Below, in pieces: positions 6,195 to 25,405 of a DNA stretch of 64,000 bases (its first letter is position 1; each line of letters starts with the position of its first letter). The position numbers and the translations under genes were made by a program. Source of the stretch: Actinoplanes sp. NBC_00393 (lineage in GTDB: Bacteria; Actinomycetota; Actinomycetes; Mycobacteriales; Micromonosporaceae). Under the pieces are notes generated by a model. That model did no database searches. It was not told the origin of the DNA and saw only the letters and a program-made list of their open reading frames with translations. The stretch covers positions 5,360,501-5,424,500 of the forward strand of contig NZ_CP107942.1 of NCBI RefSeq assembly GCF_036053395.1, written 5' to 3'.

Positions 6195-6224
6195 CTGTTT
6201 CGCTAGAGGAAACAGCGTTTTCCT
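6195..6224. promoter_or_regulatory. Operator site A (GAAAC-N3-GTTTt) upstream of the WxL operon
   Basis: About 93-122 nt before the WxL gene start lie two overlapping inverted repeats. CTGTTTC (6195-6201) and GAAACAG (6209-6215) are perfect arms 7 nt apart. GAAAC-AGC-GTTTT (6209-6221) is a one-mismatch copy of the GAAAC-N3-GTTTC palindrome found perfectly at 17.5, 18.5 and 25.4 kb. A repressor of the shared regulon probably binds here. Confidence 0.6.
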
Positions 6225-6295
6225 TTTGTGTGGGATCAATAAATCCAGCTCACGAGGGCGGTGTCAACCCTCCAAAGAGTCTTATCTCGCTGTGC

Positions 6296-6308
6296 GATAC
6301 AGCGTTTC
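6296..6308. promoter_or_regulatory. Operator site B (GAtAC-N3-GTTTC)
   Basis: GATAC-AGC-GTTTC has one mismatch to the shared palindrome. It lies about 195 nt upstream of the WxL gene and just beyond the stop of the MmgE/PrpD gene, in the gap separating the catabolic operon from the WxL/ABC operon. A further GGAAACAGCG half-site occurs at 6327-6336 in the MmgE/PrpD coding end. Confidence 0.5.
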
Positions 6309-6319
6309 CATAGTTGGGA

Positions 6320-7699
6320 TCAGGATGGAAACAGCGCGGAAACCGGGCCGCCGGAACCCAGGTCGCCCACCGCGCGGGCGAGCGCGGCCACGGCCCCGGC
6401 CGGCAGCGCGCGGCCGGCGTTCCCGGTGAACTTCTCGGTCACCTCGGCCAGGCTCAGGGGATGGCCCGGGCCGCCGCGCGAGCTCGTGACGCGATGCTGC
6501 AGCACTGACCCGGTACGCGTACGCACGCGCAGCACCCCGGCGAAGGCGCGCGGGAACGCCGCGGAGGCCACCGGATCCGCGCGGACCTCAATGCGGGCCG
6601 CCAGGTCCAGCCGGCGCGGGTCCAGCGCGGCGAAATCGTCCAGGCCGACGCCGAGACCGCCACCGCCGGTCAGCGCGACCGCCACGGTGTACGGCCCGGA
6701 GAACTTGGCGTGATAGCCACTGCGCGGCCGGGCCTTCTCGGCGGCCGGTTCGGCGATGGTACGCAGCACCGGCTCGGCCACCCCGAGTTCGGCGCTCACC
6801 ACGTCATCGGGATCGAGGCCGGCCGCACGCAGGGCGAGGGCACAATCGATCCCGGCGTGGGTGAAATGGTTCGACGGGTACGGCTTGAACACCGTCCGCA
6901 GCAGCTCCCACTCCTCGCCGAGCCGGTCGGTCACGGCCGTCGGGTCGAAACGCCCGGTGTGCGCGGTGAAGAACCCGAACCGTCCCTCCAGGACAGTCGG
7001 CGGCCCGGTCAGCCCTTCGGCGGCCAGCGTCGCGGCGACGACGCCGCCGTGCGCGGCCCAGCCGCAGTGCGCCCGTTTCACCGAGCCGCCGGTGCGGTTC
7101 GCCTCCAGCACGCCGGCGCCCATCGACGCGGCGATCCCGATGGCGTCGGCGATCCGGCCGGCGTCCAGCTCGTAGAGCCGGGCCACCGCGACCGCGGCGC
7201 CGATCGTGCCGCAGATCGAGGTGGCGTGCTGGCCCCGCTCGAAATACAGGTTGGCGCCGGTGTCCGGATCACAGCCGGCCATGCCGAGCCGGTTGGTGAC
7301 CTCGATGCCGGCGGCGATCGCGGCGATCAGGTCGCCGGGCGCGCCGGCCTCGGCCGCGGCGAGCGCGGCGGGCACCACGGAGGCGCTCGGGTGCAGCACG
7401 GACGGCAGGTGGGTGTCGTCGTAGTCGAGCGAGTGCGCGAGGACGCCGTTGACGAACGCCGCGGACGGCGCCGGGAGCCGGTCGCGGAAGCCGAGCACGC
7501 TCGATTCGGGCACGCCGGCCCAGCGGCGCATCACCCGGAGTGCCGCGGGCGCCGCATCAGCGTTCTTTTCGGCGTACGCGGCCAGCGCGTTCCCCACTAC
7601 GTCGAGGATCCGGGTCGGCACGTCAGCCCGGACGGCGGCCGGCGGATCCACCTTCGCCGCGAACTCCCCGAGCACCTGCGCCAGCGGCCCTGCCGTCAC
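6320..7699 (-). CDS. MmgE/PrpD family protein
   Basis: A 459-residue cytoplasmic protein of the MmgE/PrpD superfamily, which includes 2-methylcitrate dehydratase, cis-aconitate decarboxylase and iminodisuccinate epimerase. The family hallmarks are clear: FVNGVLAHSLDYDDTH, HPSASVVPAALA, GIEVTNRLG, the HATSICGTIGAAVA block and KPYPSNHFTHAGIDCAL. The GTG start at 7699 overlaps the TGA of the cyclase gene (GTGA), giving tight coupling. Length matches the family. The exact reaction cannot be read from sequence. It is the last gene of the operon CoA-transferase, cyclase, MmgE/PrpD, so dehydration, hydration or epimerisation of a dicarboxylate-type intermediate is likely. Confidence 0.85.
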   Translation of the reverse strand: MTAGPLAQVLGEFAAKVDPPAAVRADVPTRILDVVGNALAAYAEKNADAAPAALRVMRRWAGVPESSVLGFRDRLPAPSAAFVNGVLAHSLDYDDTHLPSVLHPSASVVPAALAAAEAGAPGDLIAAIAAGIEVTNRLGMAGCDPDTGANLYFERGQHATSICGTIGAAVAVARLYELDAGRIADAIGIAASMGAGVLEANRTGGSVKRAHCGWAAHGGVVAATLAAEGLTGPPTVLEGRFGFFTAHTGRFDPTAVTDRLGEEWELLRTVFKPYPSNHFTHAGIDCALALRAAGLDPDDVVSAELGVAEPVLRTIAEPAAEKARPRSGYHAKFSGPYTVAVALTGGGGLGVGLDDFAALDPRRLDLAARIEVRADPVASAAFPRAFAGVLRVRTRTGSVLQHRVTSSRGGPGHPLSLAEVTEKFTGNAGRALPAGAVAALARAVGDLGSGGPVSALFPS

Positions 7700-8463
7700 T
7701 GCACCACCGCCAGCGGGCGGACCGGGGAGCCCGTGGCGCCGACCAGCTTCAGCGGCGCCAGGATGAACTGGAACTCGGTGACACCGGCGTCGGCCAGCTC
7801 GCTGAGCAGCATGGTCTCCACGATGTTGATCCCGGCCTCGACCAGCAGGATCCGGTGCACAGGCAAGCTCGCGTGTCCCGCCCCGGGGGCAATCCGTTCG
7901 TAGGCGATGGACTCGCCACCGGTGACCGCGACGCCGTGCTCGACCAGCCACCTGGCCGCGTCTTCGCCGACGCCGGGTACGCCGTCGCGCGTACCGATGA
8001 AAAGCGTGCCCTCCTGGAAGCGCCGTGACCAGCCGGTGCCCACCAGGACCGCGTCGCCCGGATTGATCGGAAGGTCGCCGGCGGCGGCCTGGAGGTCGGC
8101 GGCGGTCACCTCATAGCCGGGCGGCAGCACCTCGACCCCGTGCAGGGCCGCCACGTCGAGGAACACGCCACGCCCGACGAACGGCGGGAACTCGTCGATG
8201 CCCAGCCGGGCGAAACCGGCGTCGGACTGCACGTCGGCGGCGACGATCCCGCCGTGCAGCAGGCCGTCCTGGGAGACGTGCGCGAGGGCGTCGACGTGCG
8301 TGCCGACGTGCGTGCCGGTGACCAGGATGTCGTTGGCCGCCGAGCCACCGCCGGCGCGCACCATGTCGCCGTGCCGGCGGACCAGGGCATGCGTGTACGC
8401 CGGGTGGTTCGGCGACTGCGGCATGCCCCGGCGCATGGGCTGCGCCAGATCGAAAACCTTCAT
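7696..8463 (-). CDS. Cyclase family metal-dependent hydrolase (kynurenine-formamidase-like fold)
   Basis: A 255-residue member of the putative cyclase family (PF04199), which includes kynurenine formamidase and isatin hydrolase and hydrolyses amide bonds with a divalent metal. The metal-binding motif is visible as GTHVGTHVDALAH; the GDAVLVGTGWSRR strand and the TGGESIAYERIAPG region are also typical. The ATG overlaps the stop of the CoA-transferase and its own stop overlaps the GTG of the MmgE/PrpD gene. In this operon it could open a lactam or imide ring or hydrolyse an N-acyl intermediate. Confidence 0.85.
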   Translation of the reverse strand: MKVFDLAQPMRRGMPQSPNHPAYTHALVRRHGDMVRAGGGSAANDILVTGTHVGTHVDALAHVSQDGLLHGGIVAADVQSDAGFARLGIDEFPPFVGRGVFLDVAALHGVEVLPPGYEVTAADLQAAAGDLPINPGDAVLVGTGWSRRFQEGTLFIGTRDGVPGVGEDAARWLVEHGVAVTGGESIAYERIAPGAGHASLPVHRILLVEAGINIVETMLLSELADAGVTEFQFILAPLKLVGATGSPVRPLAVVQ

Positions 8464-9641
8464 ATGGCTCCCTCGGCCCTCAGCGCGGCCCGCTCGTCGG
8501 CGTCGTAACCGAGGTCGGCGAGCACGTCGTCGGTGTCCGCACCGTGCGGCCGGCCGGTCCACCGGATCCGGCCGGGTGTGCGCGACATGCGGTACAGCGG
8601 GCCGGGCATGCGCACCGGCCCGAGCGTGGGGTCGTGCGCGGTGGTGACCGAGTCGCGCGCGGTGAACTGCGGATCGGCGAAGACGTCCGCGATGTCGTAG
8701 ACCGGGGCGATCGCCGCCTGCGCCTGTTCGAACGCGGCGGTCACCGTGGCCAGGTCGCGTTTGCCGATCCAGTCGCCGACCGCGTCGTCGAGCAGGTCGG
8801 CGTGCTCGGCCCGGCCGGCGCCGGTCGCGAACCACGGCTCGTCGATCAATTCGGGACGGCCGACCAGGTGCATCACGCGCTCGGCGATAGCTTGGGCGCT
8901 GGTCGAGATCGCCACCCAGCGGCCGTCGGCGGTCCGGTAGGTGTTGCGCGGCGCGTTGTTGACCGACCGGTTGCCGGTGCGGCGCTGCACCACGCCGAGC
9001 TGGTCGTAGACCATCGCCTGCATGCCGAGAACGGTCAGCATCGGCTCGACGATGGCCAGGTCGATCACCTGGCCGGGTTGCTGGTGGACGTCCCGGTGGT
9101 AGAGGGCAGTCATGATCGCCTGGGCGGTGGTCAGGGCGGCGATGCCGTCGGCCAGGCCGAACGGCGGCAGCGTGGGCGGGCCGTCGGGTTCGCCGGTGAT
9201 CGCTGCGAAGCCGCTCATCGCCTCGGCCAGGGTGCCGAATCCGGGGCGATGCGAGTACGGACCGGTCTGGCCGTAGGTGGTCACCCGGGCGATGATCAAT
9301 TCTGGTCTCAGCGTCTCCGGCGCCAGCCCCCAGCGCTCCAGCGTTCCCGGCCGGAAGTTCTCGATCAGGACATCCGCCTCGTCGAGCATCTTCCGCAGGA
9401 TCTCCGCGCCTTTCGGCCGGCTCAGGTCGAGCGTGACCGTGCGCTTGTTGCGGCCGAGCATGGTCCACCACAGCGGAACGCCGTCCTTGGCCGGCCCGTG
9501 ACCGCGCGCCGGATCGCCCTTGGCCGGGTGCTCGATCTTGATGACCTCGGCCCCGTAGTCGCCGAGGATCGTCGCGGCCAGGGGTCCGGCGAACAGGGTG
9601 GACGCGTCGACGACACGGACACCCGCGAGAGGGCTGGGCAT
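8460..9641 (-). CDS. Class III (CaiB/BaiF) CoA-transferase
   Basis: A 393-residue family III CoA-transferase that moves CoA between carboxylic acids. The N-terminal motif LAGPLAATILGDYGAEVIKIE, then GDPARG, RNKRTVTLDL, IENFRPGTLERWGL and TYGQTGPY, are all standard. The likely catalytic aspartate is Asp165 in GLADG. The start is the ATG at 9641; the next in-frame upstream sequence is not family-like. It is the first gene of a minus-strand operon facing the divergent amidohydrolase, with a degenerate shared operator in the 74-bp gap. A paralogue is at 18579-19865. Confidence 0.88.
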   Translation of the reverse strand: MPSPLAGVRVVDASTLFAGPLAATILGDYGAEVIKIEHPAKGDPARGHGPAKDGVPLWWTMLGRNKRTVTLDLSRPKGAEILRKMLDEADVLIENFRPGTLERWGLAPETLRPELIIARVTTYGQTGPYSHRPGFGTLAEAMSGFAAITGEPDGPPTLPPFGLADGIAALTTAQAIMTALYHRDVHQQPGQVIDLAIVEPMLTVLGMQAMVYDQLGVVQRRTGNRSVNNAPRNTYRTADGRWVAISTSAQAIAERVMHLVGRPELIDEPWFATGAGRAEHADLLDDAVGDWIGKRDLATVTAAFEQAQAAIAPVYDIADVFADPQFTARDSVTTAHDPTLGPVRMPGPLYRMSRTPGRIRWTGRPHGADTDDVLADLGYDADERAALRAEGAI

Positions 9642-9672
9642 GACCCACCCTAACCGCTCTGTTCCGTTAAGG

Positions 9673-9685
9673 GAAACCTCGTTAC
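9673..9685. promoter_or_regulatory. Degenerate operator site C (GAAAC-N3-GTTaC)
   Basis: GAAAC-CTC-GTTAC lies in the 74-bp divergent gap between the CoA-transferase (start 9641) and the amidohydrolase (start 9716). It has one mismatch to the perfect sites. A second half-site CGAAACAGC is at 9692-9700. It could control both directions. Confidence 0.5.
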
Positions 9686-9715
9686 TGTGTGCGAAACAGC
9701 TATGGAGGTCGCCGG

Positions 9716-11149
9716 ATGAGTCGCTATGAACTGCTGGTCCGCGGAGGCACCCTCGTCGTGCCGTATCTCGGAACGATCCGGGCCGACCTGGCCACCCGCA
9801 ACGGCAAGGTCGCCGCGATCGCCGACGAGATCGACCCCTCGGAAGCTTCCACCGTTCTCGACGCCACCGGCAAGCTCGTCTTCCCCGGCGCCGTCGACGC
9901 CCACTTCCACCTGGGCATCTACCGCCCACTGTCGGTCGACGCCGCCGAGGAGACCCGGTCCTCGCTGGTCGGCGGGGCGACGACGGTGCTCTCCTACTTC
10001 CGCACCGGCCAGCACTACCTGAACAAGACCGGGCCGTACGCGACGATCTTCCCGGAGGTCCTCTCCGCGGTGGCCGGCAACGCGTGGACCGACTACGGCT
10101 TCCACCTCGCGCCGATGGACACCGCCCAGGTCCACGAGATCCCGGATCTGGTCGGCGAGGCCGGGGTCAGCTCGTTCAAGTACTACATGTTCTACAAGGG
10201 CTTCAATCTGTCGGCCGACTCGCGCGACGCCAAGGCGTTCACGATGAGCGACGAGTACGACCTCGGCCACCTCTACCAGCTCATGGAAGCGGTGGCCGCG
10301 GCGAACCAGTCAACCGACCGCCGGGTCTCCCTCTCCCTGCACTGCGAGCAGGCCGAACTCATGCGGCTCTTCATCGACCGGGTACGCGCCGCCGGCGACC
10401 CGCAGACCCTGAAGGCGTACTCGGACGCCCGCCCGCCACTGACCGAACGGGTCGCCATCGGCGAGGCCACCACCCTGGCCCGCGCCACCAACTGCGCCGT
10501 CAACCTGCTGCACCTCTCCTCCGGCGAAGCCCTGGCCGCCGCCCGCGAAGCCCGCGCCGCGATGCCCGGCGTCGACATGCGCTTCGAGGTCACCCTGCAC
10601 CACCTGTGCCTGAACCACGACGAACTCGACGCGCAGGGCGGCCTGGGCGCCAAGGTCAACCCGCCGATCCGCAGCCACGCCGACACCGAGGCCCTGTGGG
10701 CCAGCGTCCTGGACGGCACCGTCGGCTGGGTCGCCTCCGACCACGCCTGCTGCCTGGAGTCGGAAAAGGGCGACGAGTTGTGGCCGGCCCTGCCCGGCTT
10801 CGGCGGCACCGCGCTGCTCTACCCGATCCTGCTGAGCGAGGGCATGCACAAACGCGGCCTGTCCCCCACCCGCGTGGCCGAGCTGGTCTCCGCCAACCCG
10901 GCCCGCGCCTACGGCCTCGACGGCCGCAAGGGCAACCTGCTCGTCGGCTACGACGCCGACCTGGCCGTCATCGACCCCGACCTGGAACAGGAGGTCACCA
11001 CCGACCTGCTGCTCTCCGGCCAGGACCACTGCCCGTTCGAGGGCCGCAAGGTCCGGGGCTGGCCGGTAGCCACCATCCTGAGAGGCCAGATCACCTACCA
11101 GAACGGCGCCGTGACAGGCCCCCCACGAGGCACCTTCGTCGCCCGCTGA
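9716..11149 (+). CDS. Dihydropyrimidinase/hydantoinase-like amidohydrolase
   Basis: A 477-residue cyclic-amidohydrolase of the dihydropyrimidinase/allantoinase group that opens cyclic amides or imides. The binuclear metal site can be placed: HxH at His63 and His65 (DAHFHLG), a carboxylated lysine at Lys155 (SSFKYYM), His209 (SLHCEQ), His266 (NLLHLSS) and Asp342 (SDHACC). The ATG at 9716 follows a good ribosome binding site (TGGAGG, 7-12 nt upstream). It is transcribed alone and divergently from the CoA-transferase operon. Combined with the cyclase and the isochorismatase-fold hydrolase it suggests stepwise hydrolysis of a cyclic amide. The true substrate is unknown. Confidence 0.86.
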   Translation: MSRYELLVRGGTLVVPYLGTIRADLATRNGKVAAIADEIDPSEASTVLDATGKLVFPGAVDAHFHLGIYRPLSVDAAEETRSSLVGGATTVLSYFRTGQHYLNKTGPYATIFPEVLSAVAGNAWTDYGFHLAPMDTAQVHEIPDLVGEAGVSSFKYYMFYKGFNLSADSRDAKAFTMSDEYDLGHLYQLMEAVAAANQSTDRRVSLSLHCEQAELMRLFIDRVRAAGDPQTLKAYSDARPPLTERVAIGEATTLARATNCAVNLLHLSSGEALAAAREARAAMPGVDMRFEVTLHHLCLNHDELDAQGGLGAKVNPPIRSHADTEALWASVLDGTVGWVASDHACCLESEKGDELWPALPGFGGTALLYPILLSEGMHKRGLSPTRVAELVSANPARAYGLDGRKGNLLVGYDADLAVIDPDLEQEVTTDLLLSGQDHCPFEGRKVRGWPVATILRGQITYQNGAVTGPPRGTFVAR

Positions 11150-11459: not shown

Positions 11460-11460
11460 A

Positions 11461-13143: not shown

Positions 13144-15129
13144 TCAGCCGACGGGGACGGAGCGGACGGCCTCGTCCTCGGTGGCCATGGCTTCCTGGCG
13201 GGCGGGCTCCTCGCGCAGGATCGCGGCGTTCAGCCAGGTGTCCGGGATGGCGAAAGCGTCGACCAGGGTGCGCATGTGGGGGCGGAGCTCACGGAGCAGG
13301 TCGTTGACGACTGCGGTGACGGCCTTGGAGCGGGCGGGGGTGAGGCGGCCGTGTTCCATCAGCCAGCCCTTGTCGGCTTCGATGACGCTCAGGGCGTACA
13401 GGTCGCAGACCTTGGAGAGCAGCGCCTGCGCTGCGGGGTCCGTGGTGCGGTCGATGCCGGCCACGAAGGCTTCCAGGGTGATCCGGTCGACGTGGGCGGC
13501 GGCGACCGACAGCACGTGGTCCTGGACGTCGTTGAAGATCTCGAAGGGGCGGTCCTTCTTGGTGGCCGCACCCTTGCGCAGGCGGCGGATCGCGCCGTCT
13601 AGGAGGTGCTTCTCGCGGTCCTCGAAGACGGTCAGGTGCCAGCCGCGGTCGGTGACCGCGACCTCCTCGTCACGGCCGGGGGCGGCGCTGACCAGGCGCT
13701 GGATCAGGGAGCGGGCGGCGGTGCGCTCGAGGACCATCTCGCGGACCTGCTCGGCGACGAACGTGGCGCGGCCCCAGCCGTCCAGCGAGCCGAACGCGTC
13801 GCGGTATCCGGTGAGCAGGCCCTTCGCGACCAGCTGGAGCAGGACGGTGTTGTCGCCTTCGAAGGTGGTGAAGACGTCGGTGTCCGCCTTCAGCCCGGGC
13901 AGCCGGTTCTCGGCGAGGTAGCCGGCGCCACCGCAGGCTTCGCGGCACATCTGGATGGTCCGGGTGGCGTGCCAGGTCTGCGCCGCCTTCAGACCGGCCG
14001 CGCGGGACTCCAGCTCGCGCTGGCGGTGCTCGTCGACAGACGAATCACCAGCGGAACCGCCCTGCACCTCGGCCAGGGTGGCGACGAGCTCCTCCTGGGC
14101 GAAGACATATGCGTACGACGTGGCCAGCGCCGGCAGCAGCTTGCGCTGATGGGCGAGGTAGTCGTTGAGGACGACCTCACGGTCGTCGCCGGGCCGGGTG
14201 AACTGGCGGCGGCTGTCGCCGTAGCGGACCGCGATGGCCAGCGCGCTGCGGGTGGCCGCCGAGGCGGACGCGCCGACGGTGACCCGGCCGCGGACCAGGG
14301 TGCCGAGCATGGTGAAGAAGCGGCGCGTGTCGTTCTCGATCGGGCTGGAGTACGCGCCGTCCGGGGCGACCTGGCCGTACCGGTCGAGCAGCATCTCCCG
14401 CGGGACCGTCACATGGTCGAACGAGATCCGCCCGTTGTCGACGCCGAGCAGGCCGGCCTTGGCGCCCGCGTCGCCGAGGGTGACACCGGGCATCGGGTTG
14501 CCCTCGTCGTCCCGGATCGGCACCAGCCAGGCGTGTACGCCGTACCGCCGGCCACCGGTGATGAGCTGGGCGAAGACGACCGCCATCCGCCCGTCCCGGG
14601 CCGCGTTGCCGATGTAGTCCTTGCGCGCGGCCTCGTGCGGCGTGTGCAGGTCGAACGTGCCGGTGGACGGGTCGTACGTGCACGTGGTGCGCAGCTGCTG
14701 CACGTCGGAGCCGTGCCCGGTCTCGGTCATCGCGAAGCAGCCCATCAGGTCCGCCGAGATGATGTCCCGCAGGTACGCCTCGTGGTGCTTGGCGGTGCCC
14801 AGGGCGACCACCGCGCCGCCGAACAGGCCCCACTGCACCCCGGCCTTGACCATCAGCGACAGGTCGACCTGGGCGAGCATCTCGGCTGCCACGGCCGAGC
14901 CGCCCGGGTCGCCGGAGCCGCCGTACTCGACCGGGAAGGCCGAGGCGACCCCGACGTCCGTGGGGAGCTCGCGGATCAGCCGGCTGATCCGCTCCCGTGC
15001 CTGGTCACCGGTCTCGCCGGGGACGGTGACGAACTCAGGGCCCAGCTCGTCGCGCACCGCCCGGCGGATGTGCGCCCACCGGCCGTCGAGCACTTCCTGC
15101 AGGCGGGCCGGGTCAACTTCGCGGATCAT
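13144..15129 (-). CDS. Acyl-CoA oxidase/dehydrogenase family protein
   Basis: A 661-residue flavoprotein of the long acyl-CoA oxidase-like family. It catalyses the first oxidation step of beta-oxidation. The N-terminal helical domain is followed by the flavin-binding strand GCFAMTETGHGSDVQQLRT. The mid-C-terminal part has the CREACGGAGYL motif and TTFEGDNTVLLQ, whose Glu is the expected catalytic base. The extra C-terminal domain of about 200 residues fits the ACOX-like architecture rather than the roughly 380-residue dehydrogenases. A TTAC...GTAA palindrome lies about 10 nt upstream. GGAGG is very close to the ATG (1-2 nt), so initiation may be unusual. It is a single-gene unit. Confidence 0.88.
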   Translation of the reverse strand: MIREVDPARLQEVLDGRWAHIRRAVRDELGPEFVTVPGETGDQARERISRLIRELPTDVGVASAFPVEYGGSGDPGGSAVAAEMLAQVDLSLMVKAGVQWGLFGGAVVALGTAKHHEAYLRDIISADLMGCFAMTETGHGSDVQQLRTTCTYDPSTGTFDLHTPHEAARKDYIGNAARDGRMAVVFAQLITGGRRYGVHAWLVPIRDDEGNPMPGVTLGDAGAKAGLLGVDNGRISFDHVTVPREMLLDRYGQVAPDGAYSSPIENDTRRFFTMLGTLVRGRVTVGASASAATRSALAIAVRYGDSRRQFTRPGDDREVVLNDYLAHQRKLLPALATSYAYVFAQEELVATLAEVQGGSAGDSSVDEHRQRELESRAAGLKAAQTWHATRTIQMCREACGGAGYLAENRLPGLKADTDVFTTFEGDNTVLLQLVAKGLLTGYRDAFGSLDGWGRATFVAEQVREMVLERTAARSLIQRLVSAAPGRDEEVAVTDRGWHLTVFEDREKHLLDGAIRRLRKGAATKKDRPFEIFNDVQDHVLSVAAAHVDRITLEAFVAGIDRTTDPAAQALLSKVCDLYALSVIEADKGWLMEHGRLTPARSKAVTAVVNDLLRELRPHMRTLVDAFAIPDTWLNAAILREEPARQEAMATEDEAVRSVPVG

Positions 15130-15138
15130 GCCTCCATA

Positions 15139-15152
15139 TTACCCACGAGTAA
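15139..15152. promoter_or_regulatory. Possible TetR-type operator before the acyl-CoA oxidase gene
   Basis: TTACCCACGAGTAA is an imperfect palindrome with TTAC/GTAA ends, 10-23 nt upstream of the acyl-CoA oxidase start. Palindromes of this kind precede TetR-controlled fatty-acid genes in actinobacteria. The assignment is by resemblance only. Confidence 0.4.
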
Positions 15153-15175
15153 CCTGGCCCGAACCCGGAAATGCG

Positions 15176-16009
15176 TCACATGCCGTCGCCGGACCACTCG
15201 CCCCGCGACCGCGACCGCACCGGCAGCGTCGAGATGACCGGCGCGTGCTCGTGGGAGTAGTTCTCCGGGTGGCCGCCCCACTTGACCCACTCCTGGGTCG
15301 TGTACCAGTTGGTCAGCTCACCGTCGGAGCGGATGATCCAGTCGATGTCGGTCTCGGCGATGAAGTGGCCGTGCTTCACCCCGGCCGGCCGGAAGCAGTA
15401 CGTGCCCTCGTCGATGTCGCCGAAGTTGTACGCCATCTTCCCGCCGAGCGTGTAGAACTCCTCGTAGCAGGGGTGATGCGCGAGCCGGTGGTCGGTCCAG
15501 CCCTTCTTCGCCCGGATCAGCCGGGTGTAGAAGCCGGTCTTCGGATCCCGGTGCAGCAGCTTGATGTAGAGCGGGGTGAGCGGCCCGACCGACGGCGCCT
15601 CGGTCCACTCCATCTGGTTGGCGTCCACGACGGTGACGTCGCCGAGGGGGCCCGAGGTCTGCGGATCGAAGCCGCAGTCGCCGTACTCCCGCCAGTGCAG
15701 GACGCGCGAACCTTCGCGAATCTTGATCCAGTCCATCGCCTGGCCCTGCGGCACCTGGATGTAGCCGCCGGCGCCGATCTCCTGCCCGCCGTACAGCAGG
15801 GAGCCCTCGACCACGTAGAACTCGGTGTCGGCGTGCACGACGCCGGGGCCGCGGCCCCAGTCCGCGGTGGCGTGCAGGGAGAGCGACGACGAGCCGTCCT
15901 CCTCGTCGGTCGACAGGCGGCGCTCCAGGATCCTGCCTTCGCCGTACGGCAGTTCGCCGGTGTGGAAGATGTAGTCGTTCTCGTGGATCAGCTCCACATG
16001 TGCCCTCAC
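15176..16009 (-). CDS. Double-cupin domain protein
   Basis: A 277-residue bicupin. The first cupin includes the VVHADTEFYVVEGSLLYGG segment and a glycine turn (IGAGGYIQVPQGQAMDW). The second includes HHPCYEEFYTLGGKMAYNFGDIDEGTYCFRPAGVKHGHF, with metal-type His/Glu residues in the second copy. The GTG at 16009 overlaps the stop of the upstream acyl-CoA ligase gene (GTGA), so the two are coupled. Such proteins are often dioxygenases, isomerases or small-molecule sensors; the reaction here cannot be assigned. It belongs to the ligase operon under operator D. Confidence 0.75.
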   Translation of the reverse strand: MRAHVELIHENDYIFHTGELPYGEGRILERRLSTDEEDGSSSLSLHATADWGRGPGVVHADTEFYVVEGSLLYGGQEIGAGGYIQVPQGQAMDWIKIREGSRVLHWREYGDCGFDPQTSGPLGDVTVVDANQMEWTEAPSVGPLTPLYIKLLHRDPKTGFYTRLIRAKKGWTDHRLAHHPCYEEFYTLGGKMAYNFGDIDEGTYCFRPAGVKHGHFIAETDIDWIIRSDGELTNWYTTQEWVKWGGHPENYSHEHAPVISTLPVRSRSRGEWSGDGM

Positions 16010-17478
16010 TGCGTACTCCTCAGCTCGCGTTTCAGGATCTTGCCGGCGGCGTTGCGGGGCAGCGCCGGAACGGCCCGGTACTGCTTGGGGATCTTGAAAC
16101 CGGCCAGCCGATCGCGTAGATACGCCTCGAGTACGTCGGGCACCACCGGCCCTGGGCTGACCAGATAGGCGACCACGCGTTCGCCCCAACGGTCGTCGGG
16201 TTCACCGACCACCGCACACTCGGTCACGGACGGATGCGCGAGGAGGACCTCCTCGACGTCGCGCGGGTAGACGTTCACCCCGCCCGTGATGATCACGTCT
16301 TTCACCCGGTCGACGATCGAGATGAACCCCTCCTCGTCGCGGACCACGATGTCGCCCGAGGTGAGGAAGCCGTCGTCGGTGGTGCAGGCGGCGGTCGCCG
16401 CCGGGTTCTCGTGGTAGCCGTTCATCAGGTACGGCGACCGGCTGTACAACTCGCCCGGCTCTCCCGGCCCGACTTCGCGGCCGGCGGAATCCACGATCCG
16501 GACCTGGGTGCCGAACCACGGATGGCCGACGGTCCCGGCCTTGCGGCGGGCGTCCGGCGGGCGCAGGTTGGTGACCACGCCGGCCTCGGTGGAGCCGTAC
16601 AGCTCGTGCACGCCGACGCCGGGGAACGCCTCGAAGACCCACTCCTTGAGCACCTTGGGCAGGGCGGCGGCGTTGAAGTACAACGTGTCCAGAAGCGGCA
16701 GATCGGGAATTTCCGAAAAGTGCTGGCGGATGAGCTGCGCGTGCGTCGGCACCAGGAACACCGACTGTGCCCCGTCCCGAGCGAGCAGGTCGATCAAGGC
16801 ATCGGGCTGGAACGAGCGCAGCATGCTCACGGTCGCCCCGCAGTGCACGGCCGCGTAGGCGAAGGCGAAACCGGCGCCGTGGTACATCGGCGCGACCGCG
16901 ACGGTCCGCCGCCCGGGACCGATGCCCCACTCCAGCGCGGTGGCATAAAAGGTCAACGACCGGGAGCGATGGGAGATCAGTACGCCCTTCGGGTCCCCGG
17001 TCGTGCCGGCCGTGTAAGCGATGCAGAACGGATCCCGCTCGTCCACCGGGATCCACGGGTCCACCGCCCGCGCGTCGTCGAGGAACTTCTCGTACTCCGG
17101 CCCGATCCGGATCACGCGCACCGCGAAGTCGGCAGACCCGTCCGTGATCAGCACGCGGGCCCCGGAGTGGCCGAGGATGAACTCCACCTCCGGCGCGGTG
17201 AGCCGCGGGTTGACCGGGACCAACACGAGCCCGGCCTTGGCGATCCCGGCCGCGATCTCCGGATATTCCAGGCGGTTGCCGCTGAGCAGCGCCACCCGGT
17301 CACCGGTCGTCAGGCCGAGCGACAGCAGCGCACAGGCGACCCGCGACGACCGCTCGTCCAGCGCCGCGTAGGTCAGGGCGCGGTCACCGTCGCGCACCGC
17401 GATCGCGTCCGGGGTGGCCCGGCCGAACTCCCGCACTCCGCCAGCGATCGTCAGATCCGCACCACCCGGCCGCAACAT
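16006..17478 (-). CDS. AMP-dependent acyl-CoA synthetase/ligase
   Basis: A 490-residue ANL-family enzyme that activates a carboxylic acid with ATP and then CoA. Motifs: P-loop YTAGTTGDPKGV at about 155-166, LYGSTEAG, DGFLTSGDIV, and the C-terminal GKILKREL with the adenylation lysine. The ATG at 17478 is chosen because the in-frame sequence upstream is the 23-bp operator palindrome, which would encode a meaningless leader. The cupin gene follows with a GTGA overlap. The ligase and the HMG-CoA lyase upstream are both minus-strand, with the operator between them. The acid substrate is unknown. Confidence 0.86.
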   Translation of the reverse strand: MLRPGGADLTIAGGVREFGRATPDAIAVRDGDRALTYAALDERSSRVACALLSLGLTTGDRVALLSGNRLEYPEIAAGIAKAGLVLVPVNPRLTAPEVEFILGHSGARVLITDGSADFAVRVIRIGPEYEKFLDDARAVDPWIPVDERDPFCIAYTAGTTGDPKGVLISHRSRSLTFYATALEWGIGPGRRTVAVAPMYHGAGFAFAYAAVHCGATVSMLRSFQPDALIDLLARDGAQSVFLVPTHAQLIRQHFSEIPDLPLLDTLYFNAAALPKVLKEWVFEAFPGVGVHELYGSTEAGVVTNLRPPDARRKAGTVGHPWFGTQVRIVDSAGREVGPGEPGELYSRSPYLMNGYHENPAATAACTTDDGFLTSGDIVVRDEEGFISIVDRVKDVIITGGVNVYPRDVEEVLLAHPSVTECAVVGEPDDRWGERVVAYLVSPGPVVPDVLEAYLRDRLAGFKIPKQYRAVPALPRNAAGKILKRELRSTQ

Positions 17479-17482: not shown

Positions 17483-17505
17483 GAATGGAAACACCGTTTC
17501 CATTC
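17483..17505. promoter_or_regulatory. Perfect operator site D (23-bp palindrome)
   Basis: GAATGGAAAC-ACC-GTTTCCATTC has two perfect 10-bp arms around a 3-nt centre, 5-27 nt upstream of the acyl-CoA ligase start. It contains the core GAAAC-N3-GTTTC. The TGGAAA/TTTCCA ends resemble operators of IclR-family regulators; that family assignment is inference. No candidate regulator gene lies beside it. Confidence 0.8.
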
Positions 17506-17553: not shown

Positions 17554-18531
17554 TCACCCAGCCGCGGAGCCAGCCGCGGGGCCGGCCGAGAAGCCAGCCG
17601 CGGAGCCGGCCGCGAAGCCAGCCGCGGAGCCGGCCGCGGAGCCGGCCGCGGCAGGAAAGTCACCGGCCCTTCCCAACTGCGCGGGCACAGTTGAGAGCCC
17701 GAGCTCCCCACCGATCCAGACCCCTGCCGAAGCCGCCGCCGCCACATCCACACCGGTCTTGAGACGCGACCGGTTGAGCAGATAGGCCAGATCCTCGGTG
17801 GCGATGTTCCCGGTGGCCGCCGGCGCGAACGGGCACCCGCCGATCCCGCCCAGCGAAGCATCGAGCGCGCTGAACCCGGAGGCGACGGCGGCGATCGCGT
17901 TGGCGTACCCGGTATTGCGGGTGTTGTGGAAGTGGGCGCGCAGCGGCGTGCCCGGCGCGACGGACCGCACCGCGTCCGCCAGCTCGTTCACCTGCATCGG
18001 AACGCCCACGCCGATGGTGTCGGCGAGGCAGATCTCGTTCACCGGCCCGGCATCGGCCACCAACGACCGGATCCGCGCCACCGGCACCTCGCCGGTGAAC
18101 GGACAACCGAAGGCCGCCGCGACCGTCAGAGTCACGAAAAAACCGGCATCGTGGGCGCGGGTGGCTACGACTCGGAAGGCGTCGAGCGAAGCAGCAGTGG
18201 ACATCCCTTGGTTACGCCGGGAAAACTCGTCACTGGCCACCACCACAAAGTTGATCTCGTCAGGACGAGCCGACGCCAGAGCACGATCCAGCCCACGACC
18301 ATTGAGGACCAGCGCGATATACCGGACGCCCGGCACTCGCGGCACCAGTCGCAGCACCTCCTCCGAGGAGGCCATCTGCGGCACCCGATCCGGCCGGGCG
18401 AAGGCGGCCACCTCGATCCGCCGCAGCCCGGCAGCGATGGCCCGCTCGACATAGGCGACCTTCACCGCCGCCGGCAGGGCCCGCTTCTCGTTCTGCAGCC
18501 CGTCCCGGGGCCCGACCTCGACGATCTCCAC
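17554..18531 (-). CDS. Hydroxymethylglutaryl-CoA lyase family protein with repetitive tail
   Basis: A 325-residue TIM-barrel lyase. The N-terminus EVGPRDGLQNEK carries the metal/substrate residues, RAHFHNTRNTGYAN supplies the His pair, and GGCPFAPAATGNIATED is the signature cysteine loop. It would cleave HMG-CoA or a similar 3-hydroxy-3-methyl acyl-CoA to acetyl-CoA and a keto acid. The GTG at 18531 has AGGAGG 5 nt upstream. The last 30 or so residues are an Ala/Gly/Ser repeat with no family counterpart. It is divergent from the CoA-transferase at 18579 and shares operator E. Confidence 0.86.
   Translation of the reverse strand: MEIVEVGPRDGLQNEKRALPAAVKVAYVERAIAAGLRRIEVAAFARPDRVPQMASSEEVLRLVPRVPGVRYIALVLNGRGLDRALASARPDEINFVVVASDEFSRRNQGMSTAASLDAFRVVATRAHDAGFFVTLTVAAAFGCPFTGEVPVARIRSLVADAGPVNEICLADTIGVGVPMQVNELADAVRSVAPGTPLRAHFHNTRNTGYANAIAAVASGFSALDASLGGIGGCPFAPAATGNIATEDLAYLLNRSRLKTGVDVAAAASAGVWIGGELGLSTVPAQLGRAGDFPAAAGSAAGSAAGFAAGSAAGFSAGPAAGSAAG
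17567..17656 (-). repeat. Tandem 12/24-bp GC repeat in the lyase 3' end
   Basis: Near-identical GAGCCGGCCGCG/AAGCCAGCCGCG units alternate and encode AAGS, AAGF and similar blocks at the end of the HMG-CoA lyase. The array stays in frame and appears to have lengthened the protein. Confidence 0.7.
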
Positions 18532-18543
18532 CTGTTCCTCCTA

Positions 18544-18560
18544 GCGAAACACCGTTTCGC
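18544..18560. promoter_or_regulatory. Perfect operator site E (17-bp palindrome)
   Basis: GCGAAAC-ACC-GTTTCGC lies in the 47-bp divergent gap between the HMG-CoA lyase (start 18531) and the CoA-transferase (start 18579). The spacer ACC is identical to site D. One repressor dimer here could shut off both directions. Confidence 0.78.
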
Positions 18561-18578: not shown

Positions 18579-19865
18579 GTGACCGCACCAATGAACCTTT
18601 TTCAACCTGGCGATGGGCCAGAGAACTCGAGGCCGCTGACCGGTGCCGGGCCGCATGGCCCTGGCCACGTTGAAAAAGGTCCACTGGCAGACATTCGCGT
18701 CCTGGAAACCGGAACCCTGCTCGCCGGCCCGTTCTGCGGGCAGCTCCTCGGCGACTTTGGGGCCGAGGTGATCAAGCTGGAGGATCCCGGCAAGGGCGAT
18801 CCGATGCGCCAGTGGGGCCGCGAGAAGCCGCACGGCCAGTCGCTGTGGTGGCCGGTGGTGGCCCGCAACAAGAAGTCGGTCACCTGCAACCTGCGCACCG
18901 CCGAGGGCCAGGACCTGATCCGCCGCCTGGTCGAGCACGCCGACGTGCTGCTGGAGAACTTCCGGCCCGGCACCCTGGAGCGCTGGGGCCTCTCCTACGA
19001 CGAGCTGGCGACGATCAACCCGAGGCTGATCCTGGTCCGGGTCACCGGCTACGGCCAGACCGGGCCCTATGCGCCTCGTGCCGGCTTCGGCTCGATCGGC
19101 GAGGCGATGGGTGGCCTGCGCTACGTGACCGGCGAGGCCGACCGGGCGCCGTCGCGGTCCGGCATCTCGATCGGCGATTCGCTCGCCGCGACGTACGCCG
19201 CCTTCGGCACCCTGGCCGCCCTGCACGCCCGCGAGCGCACCGGCCGCGGTCAGGTCGTCGACTCGGCGATCTACGAGGCGGTGCTCGCCATGATGGAGTC
19301 GCTGATCCCGGAGTGGGGTGTGGCGGGTTACCGGCGCGAGCGCACCGGCCCGATCCTGCCGAACGTGGCGCCCAGCAACGTCTACCCCACCGCCGACGGC
19401 TCCGACGTGCTGATCGCCGCCAACCAGGACACCGTCTTCCGCCGCCTCGCCGACGTGATGGACCGCCCCGACCTGCCCGCCGACCCGCGCTACGCGACGC
19501 ACGGCGCCCGCGGCGAGCACCAGACCGAGCTCGACGAGATCATCGCCGCCTGGACCAAGACCGTGCCGTCGGCGAAGCTCCTGTCCCTGCTGCACGACGC
19601 CGGTGTGCCGGCCGGCGGCATCTACACCGCCGAGGACATCATCGCCGACCCGCACGTCCAGGCCCGGGAGGCGGTGATCACCGTGGAGCATCCCGAGCTG
19701 GGCCCGGTCCCGATGCAGAACGTGGCGCCGCGCCTGTCCGCCACCCCCGGCGAGGTGAAGTGGGCCGGGCCGGCGCTCGGCTCGCACAACGACGAGGTCT
19801 ACCAGGGGCTGCTCGGCCTCTCCGGCGACGACCTGACGCGGCTGCGGGAGCGAGGCGTCATCTGA
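18579..19865 (+). CDS. Class III (CaiB/BaiF) CoA-transferase
   Basis: A 428-residue family III CoA-transferase related to the copy at 8460-9641. LLAGPFCGQLLGDFGAEVIKLED (residues about 47-69), GDPMRQWG, ENFRPGTLERWGL and TGYGQTGPY are present; the likely catalytic residue is Asp200 (SIGDS). About 35 residues precede the family core and are not conserved-looking; they contain an inverted repeat at DNA level. The GTG at 18579 or ATG at 18591 are the only usable starts. The stop overlaps the ATG of the isochorismatase-fold gene (TGATG). Operator E lies directly upstream. Confidence 0.86.
   Translation: MTAPMNLFQPGDGPENSRPLTGAGPHGPGHVEKGPLADIRVLETGTLLAGPFCGQLLGDFGAEVIKLEDPGKGDPMRQWGREKPHGQSLWWPVVARNKKSVTCNLRTAEGQDLIRRLVEHADVLLENFRPGTLERWGLSYDELATINPRLILVRVTGYGQTGPYAPRAGFGSIGEAMGGLRYVTGEADRAPSRSGISIGDSLAATYAAFGTLAALHARERTGRGQVVDSAIYEAVLAMMESLIPEWGVAGYRRERTGPILPNVAPSNVYPTADGSDVLIAANQDTVFRRLADVMDRPDLPADPRYATHGARGEHQTELDEIIAAWTKTVPSAKLLSLLHDAGVPAGGIYTAEDIIADPHVQAREAVITVEHPELGPVPMQNVAPRLSATPGEVKWAGPALGSHNDEVYQGLLGLSGDDLTRLRERGVI
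18596..18679. repeat. Inverted repeat in the CoA-transferase 5' coding region
   Basis: CCTTTTTCAAC (18596-18606) and GTTGAAAAAGG (18669-18679) are perfect 11-bp arms, extending to about 20 bp with two mismatches, separated by 62 nt. They bracket the non-family N-terminal extension of the CoA-transferase. Confidence 0.65.
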
Positions 19866-20593
19866 TGACCGGCCCGACCATCGAACCGGGCCGGCTGGCC
19901 GCCGATTACGCGACGGCCGGCTTCTCGCACCGGCTCGGTTGGGGCGACCGGCCCGCGGTGCTGCTCGTCGACCCCGCTCTCGCGTACACCGACCCGGATT
20001 CGCCGCTGTTTCTGCGTACCGGTCAGGCTGCAGCCGAAGCCATGAACCAGCTTGCCGTGACCGCCCGCGCGAGCAACATCCCGGTCCTCTGGACCGCCGT
20101 CCGCTTCGCGGACGAATCCTGTGCGGAGGCGCCGCTGTTCGCCGCCAAGGTCCCCGCCCTGAAACTCTTCGCCGCCGGCAATCCGCTCGGCGGCTTCGCG
20201 CCGCCGCTGCAGCCGGCGCCCGGCGAGCTCGTGGTGACCAAGCACTACGCCAGCGCCTTCGCCGGCACGTCGCTCGCCGCCTGGCTAACCGCGCACTCGA
20301 TCGACACCCTGGTCATCGGCGGTTTCTCCACCAGCGGCTGCGTTCGCGCCTCCGCGCTGGACGCGCTCCAGCACGGCTTCCGCCCGATCGTGGTCCGCGA
20401 CGCCTGCGCCGATCGCGACGCCGGCCCGCACGAGGCCAATCTCTTCGATCTCAACGCGAAATACGCCGATGTGGTCCCGCTGGGCGATTCGCTAACGCAC
20501 CTTCAGAGGTACGCGCGACGAAAAGTCCCCGCTCTCCCCGGGCGATCAGGCACGGGGAGACGCCCCAGCGCCACCGCCGGGAAACGGCAGTGA
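19865..20593 (+). CDS. Isochorismatase-fold amidohydrolase (N-carbamoylsarcosine/maleamate amidase-like)
   Basis: A 242-residue cysteine hydrolase. The catalytic triad is visible as Asp36 (LLVDP), Lys126 (VTKHYASAF) and Cys159 (TSGCVRAS); the spacing is close to N-carbamoylsarcosine amidohydrolase. It likely hydrolyses a carbamoyl or simple amide and releases ammonia. The start overlaps the CoA-transferase stop by one base. The C-terminal 20 residues are basic and low-complexity, and the 3' end overlaps the convergent M20 peptidase gene by 48 bp, so that tail is probably unstructured. Confidence 0.83.
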   Translation: MTGPTIEPGRLAADYATAGFSHRLGWGDRPAVLLVDPALAYTDPDSPLFLRTGQAAAEAMNQLAVTARASNIPVLWTAVRFADESCAEAPLFAAKVPALKLFAAGNPLGGFAPPLQPAPGELVVTKHYASAFAGTSLAAWLTAHSIDTLVIGGFSTSGCVRASALDALQHGFRPIVVRDACADRDAGPHEANLFDLNAKYADVVPLGDSLTHLQRYARRKVPALPGRSGTGRRPSATAGKRQ

Positions 20594-21895: not shown

Positions 21896-21930
21896 GATCC
21901 CACCCTAGGTACGGATGACAGACTGCACGC

Positions 21931-22311
21931 ATGGGGTTGTTCACGCCGGCCGAGGCGCGCGCGGAGTTGACCCGGCTGCGGCCGGTCCTCGACGAGATCG
22001 TCACCGTCCGCGCCGACATGGTCGAGCTCTCCGCCGCGCTGACCCCCGGTGGCCCGCCCACCGATCTGGGCGGGCTGCCCGAACGGAAGGCGGCCGAGGC
22101 CCGGCTCAACGAGCTGATGACGACGGTGCAGGAGACCGGCGCCGAGCTCAAGGGGGTGGCGCCGCTGCTCGTCGACTTCCCGGCCGAGCTGGACGGCGTA
22201 CCGGTGCTGCTCTGCTGGCTGGAAGGTGACCCGGACCTGGCCTGGTACCACCGCGCTGATCTCGGTTTCGCCGGCCGCCGCCGGCTGTCCGGCGGCACCG
22301 GGCCGGAATGA
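21931..22311 (+). CDS. DUF2203 family protein
   Basis: A 126-residue protein matching the DUF2203 pattern: an N-terminal helical EAR..L..L.P.L hairpin and a C-terminal PLLVDFPAELDGVPVLLCWLEGDPDLAWYHRADLGFAGRR segment. The function of the family is unknown. It overlaps the MFS gene start by ATGA, so the two are co-expressed. Confidence 0.83.
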   Translation: MGLFTPAEARAELTRLRPVLDEIVTVRADMVELSAALTPGGPPTDLGGLPERKAAEARLNELMTTVQETGAELKGVAPLLVDFPAELDGVPVLLCWLEGDPDLAWYHRADLGFAGRRRLSGGTGPE

Positions 22312-23516: not shown

Positions 23517-23571
23517 CTGGGTCCCTGCGCACGCGCTCATCCGGCGCCGGCAGCACCGCGGAACTGACCGG
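23470..23571 (+). repeat. Tandem duplication (about 51 bp) of the MFS gene 3' end
   Basis: The segment beginning TCCCTGCGCACGC and ending CACCGCGGAACTGAC occurs twice in a row (about 23470-23520 and 23522-23571), differing by a few bases and a one-base length change. The first copy contains the MFS stop codon. Confidence 0.75.
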
Positions 23572-23636
23572 CCGGCCCTCGACCCGGCCACCGCGTGCCG
23601 CCACAATCGACAGCGGTGCCGACCAGTGGAGGCCCG

Positions 23637-24365: not shown

Positions 24366-24375
24366 CGAGGCGGGC
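24350..24375. terminator. Weak hairpin between convergent genes
   Basis: GCCCGCC (24350-24356) can pair with GGCGGGC (24369-24375) across a 12-nt loop that contains the SLOG gene stop codon. It lies between convergent genes. Confidence 0.4.
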
Positions 24376-24387
24376 AGCGCCCGGCGC

Positions 24388-25359
24388 TCAGTTGCCGCTG
24401 AGCGTCTGGATCGTTCCGCCGGTGAGTAGCCCCTGGTAGTAGCTGCCGCCCGGGTAGTACGTGGCAGTGGTCGTGCCGGCCACCGCGTCCGACGCCCAGG
24501 CCACCGCAAGCGTCTGCAGCGCGGTCACGTTCTTGGCCTGGGAGGCGCCGCCGGTCAGCGTGCAGAGCGCGTCAGTGCTGGCCCCTTCCGCGTCGCAGTG
24601 GCTGCCGCTGGTGAGCCGGACGCCGAGGAACGGCCGGTCGAGCTGGTCGACCAGTTCGACGGTGCCGCTGGCGTTGCTGTTCGACAGGTACGGCGGCGAG
24701 GAGACGGTGTAGATCGGGAGGCCGGTGTTCGCCAGCCCGGACAGCCCGGTGGCCATGTTGGAGCCGGCCGGCGACTTGACCGGGTCGAGCAGCTGCAGGT
24801 ATTTCAGGGCCGCGAACGCGCTGGGGTGCGTGGTGCGCAGCCGGTTGGCGATGTAGGTGACGGCTTCCCCGCCGGCCGAGTGCCCGGCCAGCACGTACCT
24901 GGTGGGCAGGGTGCTGCCGGACCGGCCGGCCGCGGTGGCCGCCGCCGCGTAACTGCGGGCGAGGGCGCTGGTCGGGGTGGTCGCCTGCCCGAGCCAGGCG
25001 GCCACGCTGTTCAGGAAGGCGGTGTTGTTGCCGGTGTTGTTGACCGTGCACCCGTAGAGGTTGATCGACGGCAGGGCCGGCGCGAAGACCAGGAAGCCCG
25101 CGGCCTGATACCTGCGGGCCAGATCGGCCATGTTGCTGTTCGAGCGGGAGAAGCCGTGCTGCAGGAAGACCAGCGCTTTCGGGCTGGTGGTGGCCGGGAA
25201 GTACCAGTCGGCGTCCTGCTTGTAGGTGGAGATCCAGCAGGGGACCGAGATCTCCCCGTCGACTTCGACGGCGGCGGCCTGCGCCGCGCTCGGCGTGGCG
25301 AACAGGACGGTTGCGGACAGCAGCAGGGCCGCGAGGATGCGGCGCGGGGACAGGGACAC
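24388..25359 (-). CDS. Secreted alpha/beta hydrolase
   Basis: A 323-residue serine hydrolase with a signal peptide (residues 1-29, ending AAQAAA). The oxyanion region LQHGFSRSNSN and the nucleophile elbow GHSAGGEA (Ser) are clear, and a His in SGSHCDAEG is a plausible triad member. Cysteines suggest extracellular disulfides. The fold resembles secreted lipase/chlorophyllase-like esterases. The GTG at 25359 follows GGAGG. Operator F is centred 40 nt upstream of the start, so this gene seems to belong to the catabolic regulon. Confidence 0.8.
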   Translation of the reverse strand: MSLSPRRILAALLLSATVLFATPSAAQAAAVEVDGEISVPCWISTYKQDADWYFPATTSPKALVFLQHGFSRSNSNMADLARRYQAAGFLVFAPALPSINLYGCTVNNTGNNTAFLNSVAAWLGQATTPTSALARSYAAAATAAGRSGSTLPTRYVLAGHSAGGEAVTYIANRLRTTHPSAFAALKYLQLLDPVKSPAGSNMATGLSGLANTGLPIYTVSSPPYLSNSNASGTVELVDQLDRPFLGVRLTSGSHCDAEGASTDALCTLTGGASQAKNVTALQTLAVAWASDAVAGTTTATYYPGGSYYQGLLTGGTIQTLSGN

Positions 25360-25392
25360 GGGCCCTCCAGGGGGTCAGCCGTAACACTCTCC

Positions 25393-25405
25393 GAAACAGT
25401 GTTTC
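25393..25405. promoter_or_regulatory. Perfect operator site F (13-bp palindrome)
   Basis: GAAAC-AGT-GTTTC, an exact match to the shared GAAAC-N3-GTTTC core, 34-46 nt upstream of the secreted hydrolase start. The flanks do not extend the palindrome. Confidence 0.72.

Follow-up and report, generated by a model that had tools for sequence, protein, structure and literature searches.

A conserved three-box operator and a putative IclR-repressed regulon for tetrapyrrole breakdown in Actinoplanes sp. NBC_00393

Introduction

A stretch of 64,000 nucleotides from Actinoplanes sp. NBC_00393 (contig NZ_CP107942.1, genome positions 5360501-5424500), hereafter the window, was analysed. It carries a WxL surface protein and transporter operon, genes of the CoA-transferase, PrpD, amidohydrolase, acyl-CoA ligase and HMG-CoA-lyase families, and a secreted alpha/beta hydrolase gene, and the gaps before these genes hold copies of the palindrome GAAAC-N3-GTTTC. 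An initial annotation had read six such copies as one operator shared by separated operons under an IclR-type regulator. This proposal held, and the regulon proved to be larger and the operator longer than described. The usual operator has three boxes, GAAAC-N3-GTTTC-N7-GAAAC, the motif is conserved upstream of orthologous genes in Actinoplanes, Micromonospora, Hamadaea, Nocardia and Acidimicrobiia, and a linked IclR-family gene has a site in its own promoter. Taken as a whole, the system is quite probably an IclR-repressed regulon for tetrapyrrole breakdown, a theme that the initial annotation had not raised.

Results

The occurrence of the operator motif was analysed in the window and in the whole genome. 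Six window matches with at most one mismatch were found against 0.47 expected, and none of 100 shuffles reached six. Three copies are exact (17488-17500, 18546-18558 and 25393-25405) and three have one mismatch (6209-6221, 6296-6308 and 9673-9685); these positions agree with the initial annotation except for the first, which it had placed one base too far right at 17489-17501. The 23-bp and 17-bp palindromes it reported were verified in the sequence at 17483-17505 and 18544-18560. All six sites are intergenic, as it had stated, by gene calls made with our own codon-model script, not a standard gene finder, whose model was trained on this genome and applied to all relatives.

The exact motif occurs at seven places in the genome (one contig, 11,433,213 bp) against one for the backwards control. 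Four of the seven lie within 37 kb (5348805-5385905); six are intergenic and one overlaps the first codons of a called gene. With one mismatch allowed the count was 82 places against 17 for the control. In the 131 kb around the window eight matches have no more than one mismatch; all eight are intergenic and lie within 5339002-5385905, and three intergenic two-mismatch matches add to this cluster; the remaining 11 two-mismatch matches comprise ten coding and one intergenic. Cluster sites left of the window (5337331, 5338990-5339026 and 5348805) reach about 23 kb beyond its edge. The pattern GAAACRNYGTTTC, which has an R-N-Y centre, was found with at most one mismatch at 29 places against five for the control. 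Nineteen of these are one-mismatch sites outside the cluster and 17 of the 19 are coding, so one-mismatch sites elsewhere in the genome are mostly noise, and a large genome-wide regulon built on them was rejected.

The same preference for gaps was seen in the loci of 38 relatives. The exact motif stands 79 times outside or at the edge of called genes and three times wholly inside, where only 54,329 of 784,205 bp fall outside called genes. By the count outside or at gene edges it ranks first among 1024 five-base N3 palindromes, the runner-up having 9. The sites were also conserved upstream of orthologues. In 20-kb stretches of 12 same-genus genomes the exact sites were 26 intergenic and none coding, and the one-mismatch sites 31 intergenic and six coding by our own gene calls. 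The 13-bp cores at 17483..17505 (with an invariant ACC centre) and 18534..18558 are exact in all 12 genomes, and the GAAAC-N3-GTTAC core at 9661..9697 is present in all 12 with the mismatch identical. Allowing a single mismatch at most, the operator at 6296..6308 is kept in all 12 (GATAC in 10, GGAAC in 2), three of these equivalents being placed inside a called gene by our caller, and the GAAAC-N3-GTTTT part of 6197..6221 in 10 of 12. The operator at 25381..25405 is kept in both relatives whose stretch passes the gene start; three more stretches are cut inside the gene. In the sequences covered, neither of the two outcomes that the initial annotation had named as refuting, a motif as frequent inside genes as between them and sites not conserved upstream of orthologues, was seen.

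Individual genes were followed further. Of 16 HMG-CoA-lyase-like orthologues that share at least 69% identity (own included), 14 have an exact site, against none of 14 genes at 43-58%; 30 of the 39 listed matches had loci and were scored. The CoA-transferase gene has the site in 13 of 14 (own included), the exception being a 60% relative. Loci picked by their RCC reductase (RCCR) gene numbered 74, with 51 in three main groups, four of mixed origin and 19 gammaproteobacterial; the last two classes have no conserved site and were left out of the locus counts. An exact site lies upstream of the amidase-RCCR operon in all 37 Actinoplanes, Hamadaea, Micromonospora and Nocardia loci having that operon, and a one-mismatch site upstream of the RCCR gene in 12 of 13 loci of the Acidimicrobiia group. 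Sites also precede the IclR gene (16 of 18 loci) and the chlorophyllase-like gene (20 of 23 Nocardia loci). No site precedes the operon-internal Rieske, 229-aa, 306-aa and SDR genes in these loci, and the reversed motif scored zero in all rows. Coordinates were found for 49 of 53 hits for the 229-aa protein, 52 of 52 for the 306-aa protein, 61 of 77 for RCCR and 38 of 38 for Amdase; alignments A1, A2, A3 and A4 held 45, 44, 24 and 10 sequences, own included.

Among 60 genomes RCCR was found in 14. The CoA-transferase orthologue (at least 81%) occurs in 13, all RCCR-positive (Fisher 3e-12), and an MFS transporter in nine, again all RCCR-positive. The HMG-CoA-lyase-like orthologue carries the operator in 13 of 13 RCCR-positive against one of three RCCR-negative genomes.

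The flanks of the conserved sites were scanned, which revealed an extra box that continues the alternation of directions at a spacing of exactly 7 bp. An exact third box at this gap was found at 67 of 108 exact sites, with at most one at any other gap from 1 to 24, and at 42 of 61 one-mismatch sites, with at most three at other gaps. Tolerating a single third-box mismatch raised these counts to 93 of 108 and 45 of 61; for the one-mismatch sites the next best gap was 18, with eight. Related genomes are not independent samples, and the count was therefore made also on a flank-non-redundant set of 101 of 198 sites, where the gap-7 box was found 55 times exactly and 86 times with one mismatch, against at most two and eight at other gaps up to 20. 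The third box is present at 28 of 29 sites of the Acidimicrobiia group, in which one Rhodospirillaceae metagenome-assembled genome (MAG) is counted. Four boxes stand in two of the divergent promoters, that between IclR and flavin reductase and that between CoA-transferase and imidase (window 9661-9697). Where a single-target gap has just one third box, the box is turned toward the gene in 22 of 26 cases, and in divergent gaps 74 of 110 sites with one third box have it facing the nearer start. The third box ends 2-40 nt upstream of the next start codon in 136 of 236 oriented three-box sites, a count in which some near-palindromic sites enter in both directions; such a position would suit repression. 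The third box may also be why one half of some window sites is degenerate, those at 6209 and 9673 each having a good third box. With at most one mismatch in 15, the three-box form occurs at seven places in the genome: five in the cluster, one at a transporter gene at 3.88 Mb and one at 10.76 Mb.

The linked IclR gene, which the initial annotation had predicted as an autoregulated regulator, lies outside the window (Table 1). Its product matches both family domains above cut-off (PF09339, E 6e-13; PF01614, E 1.7e-45), one of 18 IclR_C matches in the genome. The gene and a flavin-reductase operon are transcribed divergently, and between them lie sites at 5338947 (two mismatches) and 5339002 (one mismatch). 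The protein scored under the cut-off of every NCBIfam model it matched, including BhcR, PcaR/PcaU/PobR, KdgR, IclR and AllR. Its recognition helix, [TS]KA[AV]VHR, is common to it and all 19 orthologue hits that cover the helix, down to 49% identity (one further hit, L087, stops short of it), and is absent from the other 17 IclR proteins that this genome encodes. The Acidimicrobiia-group MAGs have the cluster in a compact form, in which the IclR orthologue is flanked by the CoA-transferase gene and the amidase gene and the gap holds an operator, and in three tabulated loci (L079, L080 and L086) it is the only gene between CaiB1 and NitAmid.

The tetrapyrrole-linked proteins were assigned by profile and fold. 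The RCCR homologue matches PF06405 with E 3e-18 and 66.4 bits against a cut-off of 24.9, compared with 21.6 bits for the bilin reductase model, and has a profile E of 2.3e-21 to Arabidopsis RCCR. The catalytic residues of the plant enzyme, which we take to be Glu154 and Asp291 (a literature search did not confirm this), were compared; the Asp equivalent is invariant, as D234 in 24 sequences. The 229-aa protein has the FDBR/RCCR fold of the ferredoxin-dependent bilin reductase superfamily, whose top-listed solved members for the two reductases are bilin reductases and coproporphyrinogen oxidases. Both reductases and the Rieske gene occur together, mostly in one operon, in 50 of the 51 main-group loci, which were themselves picked by RCCR. 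The Rieske enzyme has the Rieske and 2-His-1-Asp motifs. The 306-aa family has a DUF3598/BFA1-like fold (best Foldseek E 1.3e-9, TM 0.63/0.71, rmsd 5.8), and a PDB sequence search with it gave no match. The gammaproteobacterial loci L098-L109 and L111-L116 hold a lone RCCR homologue (27-40% identity) with no Rieske or 229-aa gene nearby. In the outgroup locus L080 (L080:522-2180) a hydantoinase B adjoins PrpD where L079 and L086 have the imidase; it is a possible non-orthologous replacement, which fits a ring-opening role for the imidase.

The features of the locus are summarised in Table 1. The sites precede operons as the initial annotation had assigned them, except that the WxL/ABC operon alone is served by those at 6209 and 6296. 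The site at 6296 was rejected as a PrpD operator since it lies past the PrpD stop codon; the PrpD gene ends there, and the CoA-transferase/cyclase/PrpD operon starts at the 9661-9697 site. The start of the WxL gene was shifted to an ATG upstream of the called start, and the WxL domain itself scored 22 bits, under its cut-off of 25. The amidohydrolase matched 30 NCBIfam families, all under cut-off among the 25 matches listed; it is a candidate cyclic imidase. The third box at 18534..18558 is turned toward the HMG-CoA-lyase-like gene. The end of that reading frame (17554-17660) is a repetitive GC-rich stretch with AGCCGCGGAGCC-type repeats, and in several relatives a TGA stop falls within the matched region. 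The secreted hydrolase did not reach the cut-off of the chlorophyllase model PF07224 (E 2.2e-4, 20.5 of 26 bits), its N-terminus is signal-peptide-like by eye, and a PDB sequence search with it gave no match. By the stricter count, a neocarzinostatin-family protein (G000:C1:5357316-5358005 here) accompanies the cluster in five of the 12 loci of the Actinoplanes group and in 15 of the 26 from Nocardia.

Table 1. Genes and operators of the cluster (window positions, unless prefixed G000:C1)
Feature	Position	Strand	Remarks
IclR-family gene, 266 aa	G000:C1:5338063-5338863	-	21.6 kb left of window
WxL transporter operon, further genes: permease/ATPase and a neocarzinostatin-family protein	left of window
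WxL transporter operon, genes after the first	WxLIP 3434-4408; unknown 2355-3410; substrate-binding protein 1036-2358; LivF-type ATPase 315-1046	-
WxL-domain surface protein	4462..6102	-	first gene of transporter operon; Pfam
Three-box operator GTTTC-N7-GAAAC-N3-GTTTT	6197..6221	-	upstream of WxL/substrate-binding/ABC operon
Second WxL-operon operator GATAC-N3-GTTTC	6296..6308	-
CoA-transferase III 8460-9641, cyclase-family hydrolase 7696-8463, MmgE/PrpD 6320-7699	6320..9641	-	Pfam
Four-box operator GTTCC-N7-GAAAC-N3-GTTAC-N7-GAAAC	9661..9697	.	between divergent CoA-transferase and amidohydrolase genes
Amidohydrolase, allantoinase/dihydropyrimidinase type	9716..11149	+	Pfam
Acyl-CoA ligase 16006-17436, cupin/DUF4437 15176-15997, acyl-CoA oxidase 13144-15129	13144..17436	-	Pfam
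Extended palindromic operator GAATGGAAACACCGTTTCCATTC	17483..17505	-	upstream of acyl-CoA ligase/cupin/acyl-CoA oxidase; no third box
HMG-CoA-lyase-family gene	17554..18531	-	Pfam; NCBIfam NF004283 above its cut-off
Three-box operator GTTCC-N7-GAAAC-N3-GTTTC	18534..18558	-	gap shared by HMGL-like and CoA-transferase/isochorismatase genes
CoA-transferase III and isochorismatase-family hydrolase	18768..20593	+	Pfam
Alpha/beta hydrolase, weakly chlorophyllase-like, GHSAG nucleophile motif	24388..25359	-	Pfam
Operator GAAAC-N3-GTTTC with weak third box GTAAC	25381..25405	-	upstream of secreted alpha/beta hydrolase

Sites far from the cluster were also inspected. One of them, 1.48 Mb away, belongs to an MFS/OATP-like transporter gene (3880577) and is kept in nine of nine genomes (five exact, four with one mismatch), and the predicted regulon extends to at least this distant gene. 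A one-mismatch three-box site at 10762046-10762070 (L136:2989), 5.4 Mb from the cluster, lies 12 bp upstream of a 226-aa gene, a candidate member whose product has no Pfam hit and is hydrophobic and membrane-type by eye. Two exact sites were left out of the member count: that at 2225760 (L037:6761), about 59 bp upstream of a molybdopterin oxidoreductase operon (Fer2/Fer2_2 and MoCoBD genes) and reaching into the first codons of a divergent gene call, and that at 946009 (L036:6010), about 18 bp upstream of an NAD-epimerase-like gene whose next upstream same-strand gene is a P450. An intergenic one-mismatch site lies at 1132922, and the coding match at 5269479 was rejected.

Discussion

A single IclR regulator very probably reads the operator, and regulation is likely to be by repression. 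The local protein would bind the operators close to the start codons of its target operons and block transcription; an inducer, probably the pathway substrate or an intermediate, would release it and switch on about a dozen transcription units jointly. The chemistry may be read from the families and their co-conservation in the following order. Surface capture and Liv-type uptake would import a tetrapyrrole, which esterases could trim. The Rieske oxygenase, the RCCR homologue and the second bilin-reductase-fold enzyme would open and reduce it, as in the plant PAO/RCCR pathway, and flavin monooxygenases and aldehyde dehydrogenases would cut it. The imidase-like amidohydrolase and a nitrilase-family amidase could open pyrrole-derived maleimides, and the resulting dialkylmaleate-type acids would pass through PrpD, methylisocitrate-lyase, CitE and HMG-CoA-lyase family enzymes and CoA-transferases to central metabolites. 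Maleimides and hematinic acid are described as chlorophyll oxidation products in the available part of PMC7318184.

Tetrapyrrole catabolism is favoured as the function with reasonable confidence, and the odds that chlorophyll in particular is the substrate are about even. Within the substrate claim, a tetrapyrrole is the safest element and chlorophyll a less safe one, because the reductase superfamily is known for both bilin reduction and coproporphyrinogen oxidation. The fullest version is tentative and falls a little short of an even chance: one IclR would control the mineralisation of chlorophyll in heterotrophic bacteria of the Actinomycetes and Acidimicrobiia, through three- and four-box operators, with the Rieske/RCCR pair opening and reducing the macrocycle in the plant manner, the second bilin-reductase-fold enzyme and a lipocalin-like carrier handling the linear product, and the rings being split to maleimides, which imidase and amidase would hydrolyse for entry into central metabolism by way of PrpD, lyase and CoA-ester steps.

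Several observations weigh against parts of this interpretation. With one third-box mismatch allowed, gap 14 is somewhat prominent among the exact sites (22 of 108 against the 93 at gap 7), 36 of 110 divergent-gap sites have the third box on the side of the farther start, and the acyl-CoA ligase operator has none. Only 19 of the 51 main-group loci show an IclR orthologue, partly because loci were cut at 10 kb. The HMG-CoA-lyase-like gene of genome G329 carries the site though no RCCR was found there, and G352 is RCCR-positive and has no CoA-transferase CaiB1. The residue that by our own reading aligns with the presumed plant Glu154 is alanine in the RCCR homologues. The Rieske enzyme belongs to the VanA type and not to the PAO type; Rieske and VanA_C are the only domains above Pfam cut-offs, and the PaO C-terminal domain, which we take to be PF08417, was unlisted at E up to 10, a range in which HMMER filters drop most matches above about 0.1. 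The Staygreen Mg-dechelatase PF12638 was found in none of 16 cluster-bearing genomes in a search that had no positive control, and neither the Rieske nor the 229-aa gene was found in any of the 19 gammaproteobacterial RCCR loci.

The same regulon might instead act on a haem-derived or already linear bilin such as bilirubin, biliverdin or plant phyllobilins, the Rieske enzyme hydroxylating or demethylating it without opening a macrocycle. This is the strongest alternative and is still unlikely: the Pfam-scanned regulon genes include no haem oxygenase, Pfam scores mark the first reductase as an RCCR, and chlorophyllase-like and other esterases belong to the regulon. Clusters with pre-PcyA enzymes resemble the present one in placing FDBR-superfamily enzymes in non-photosynthetic heterotrophic bacteria; as far as the available part of PMC10151467 describes them, they carry haem oxygenase, V4R and globin genes, whereas here Rieske, RCCR and catabolic genes are found.

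Less likely again is a substrate unrelated to tetrapyrroles, such as a plant secondary metabolite or polyketide, with RCCR-type proteins recruited to another reduction. CaiB, PrpD, ALDH, ACAD and cupin are generic families, and both the alanine at the Glu154 position and the lone gammaproteobacterial RCCR homologues agree with such recruitment. It accounts poorly for two separate bilin-reductase-superfamily reductases beside a Rieske gene in nearly all main-group loci. The tetrapyrrole reading has a partial parallel in the PAO/RCCR (phyllobilin) pathway of plants (available part of PMC8219035), the shared features being a Rieske oxygenase gene close to one of the RCC-reductase family, together with esterases. 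The differences are the VanA-type Rieske, a Staygreen search that gave no match, the second FDBR-fold enzyme and the enzymes that could carry products to central metabolism.

It is very improbable that the site is read by another regulator, be it a GntR, a TetR or a different one among the 18 IclR-type genes. One Nocardia cluster does have two TetR genes nearby; the linked IclR gene carries the site in its promoter and stands alone between CaiB1 and NitAmid in three loci, and its product shares the helix with these orthologues only. The layout is moreover documented for IclR proteins: the available part of PMC8222616 gives predicted three-box sites for 32 IclR orthologous groups, PcaU being among the systems, in which one pair of boxes fits TGRAACA-N1-2-TGTTYCA (group 2) and the other a group 1 consensus, for example GTTYCRY-W3-RYGRAAC. 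In the present operators the core GAAACAGTGTTTC fits group 2, the other pair agrees with the group 1 subtype GTTYC-N7-GRAAC in both box sequence and spacing, and the sites are likewise close to start codons. This layout of three alternating boxes with both pairings is absent at 17483-17505 and weak at 25381-25405. The regulon content differs from the systems of that source, and no four-box divergent-promoter version was found in its available part.

The KdgR box is of the GAAAC...GTTTC type as well. The KdgR, BhcR and PcaR/PobR models align with nearly the whole IclR protein (E 5e-37, 2e-55 and 1e-42), whereas their scores of 127.5 of 275, 187.7 of 350 and 146.1 of 284.75 bits are far under the cut-offs. 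A chance or repeat origin of the sites, for which the mostly coding one-mismatch matches elsewhere might speak, was rejected by the window shuffles and the 38-locus ranking and has practically no likelihood left, the boxes being kept across families and classes while centre and spacer vary.

Conclusion

Chlorophyll is made and degraded at 10^12 kg a year, according to the available part of PMC7318184. In the open-licence literature no bacterial genes were found for taking linear chlorophyll products to central metabolites, and nothing was found on bacterial RCCR operons. The spread-out gene set looks like a candidate, apparently undescribed bacterial pathway for chlorophyll-like pigments. As a regulator, an operator and a short gene list are named in cultured genera (Actinoplanes, Micromonospora and Nocardia), the question is directly testable. 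The regulon is also a clean, widely conserved example of three- and four-box IclR operators, useful for learning how IclR proteins dimerise on DNA.

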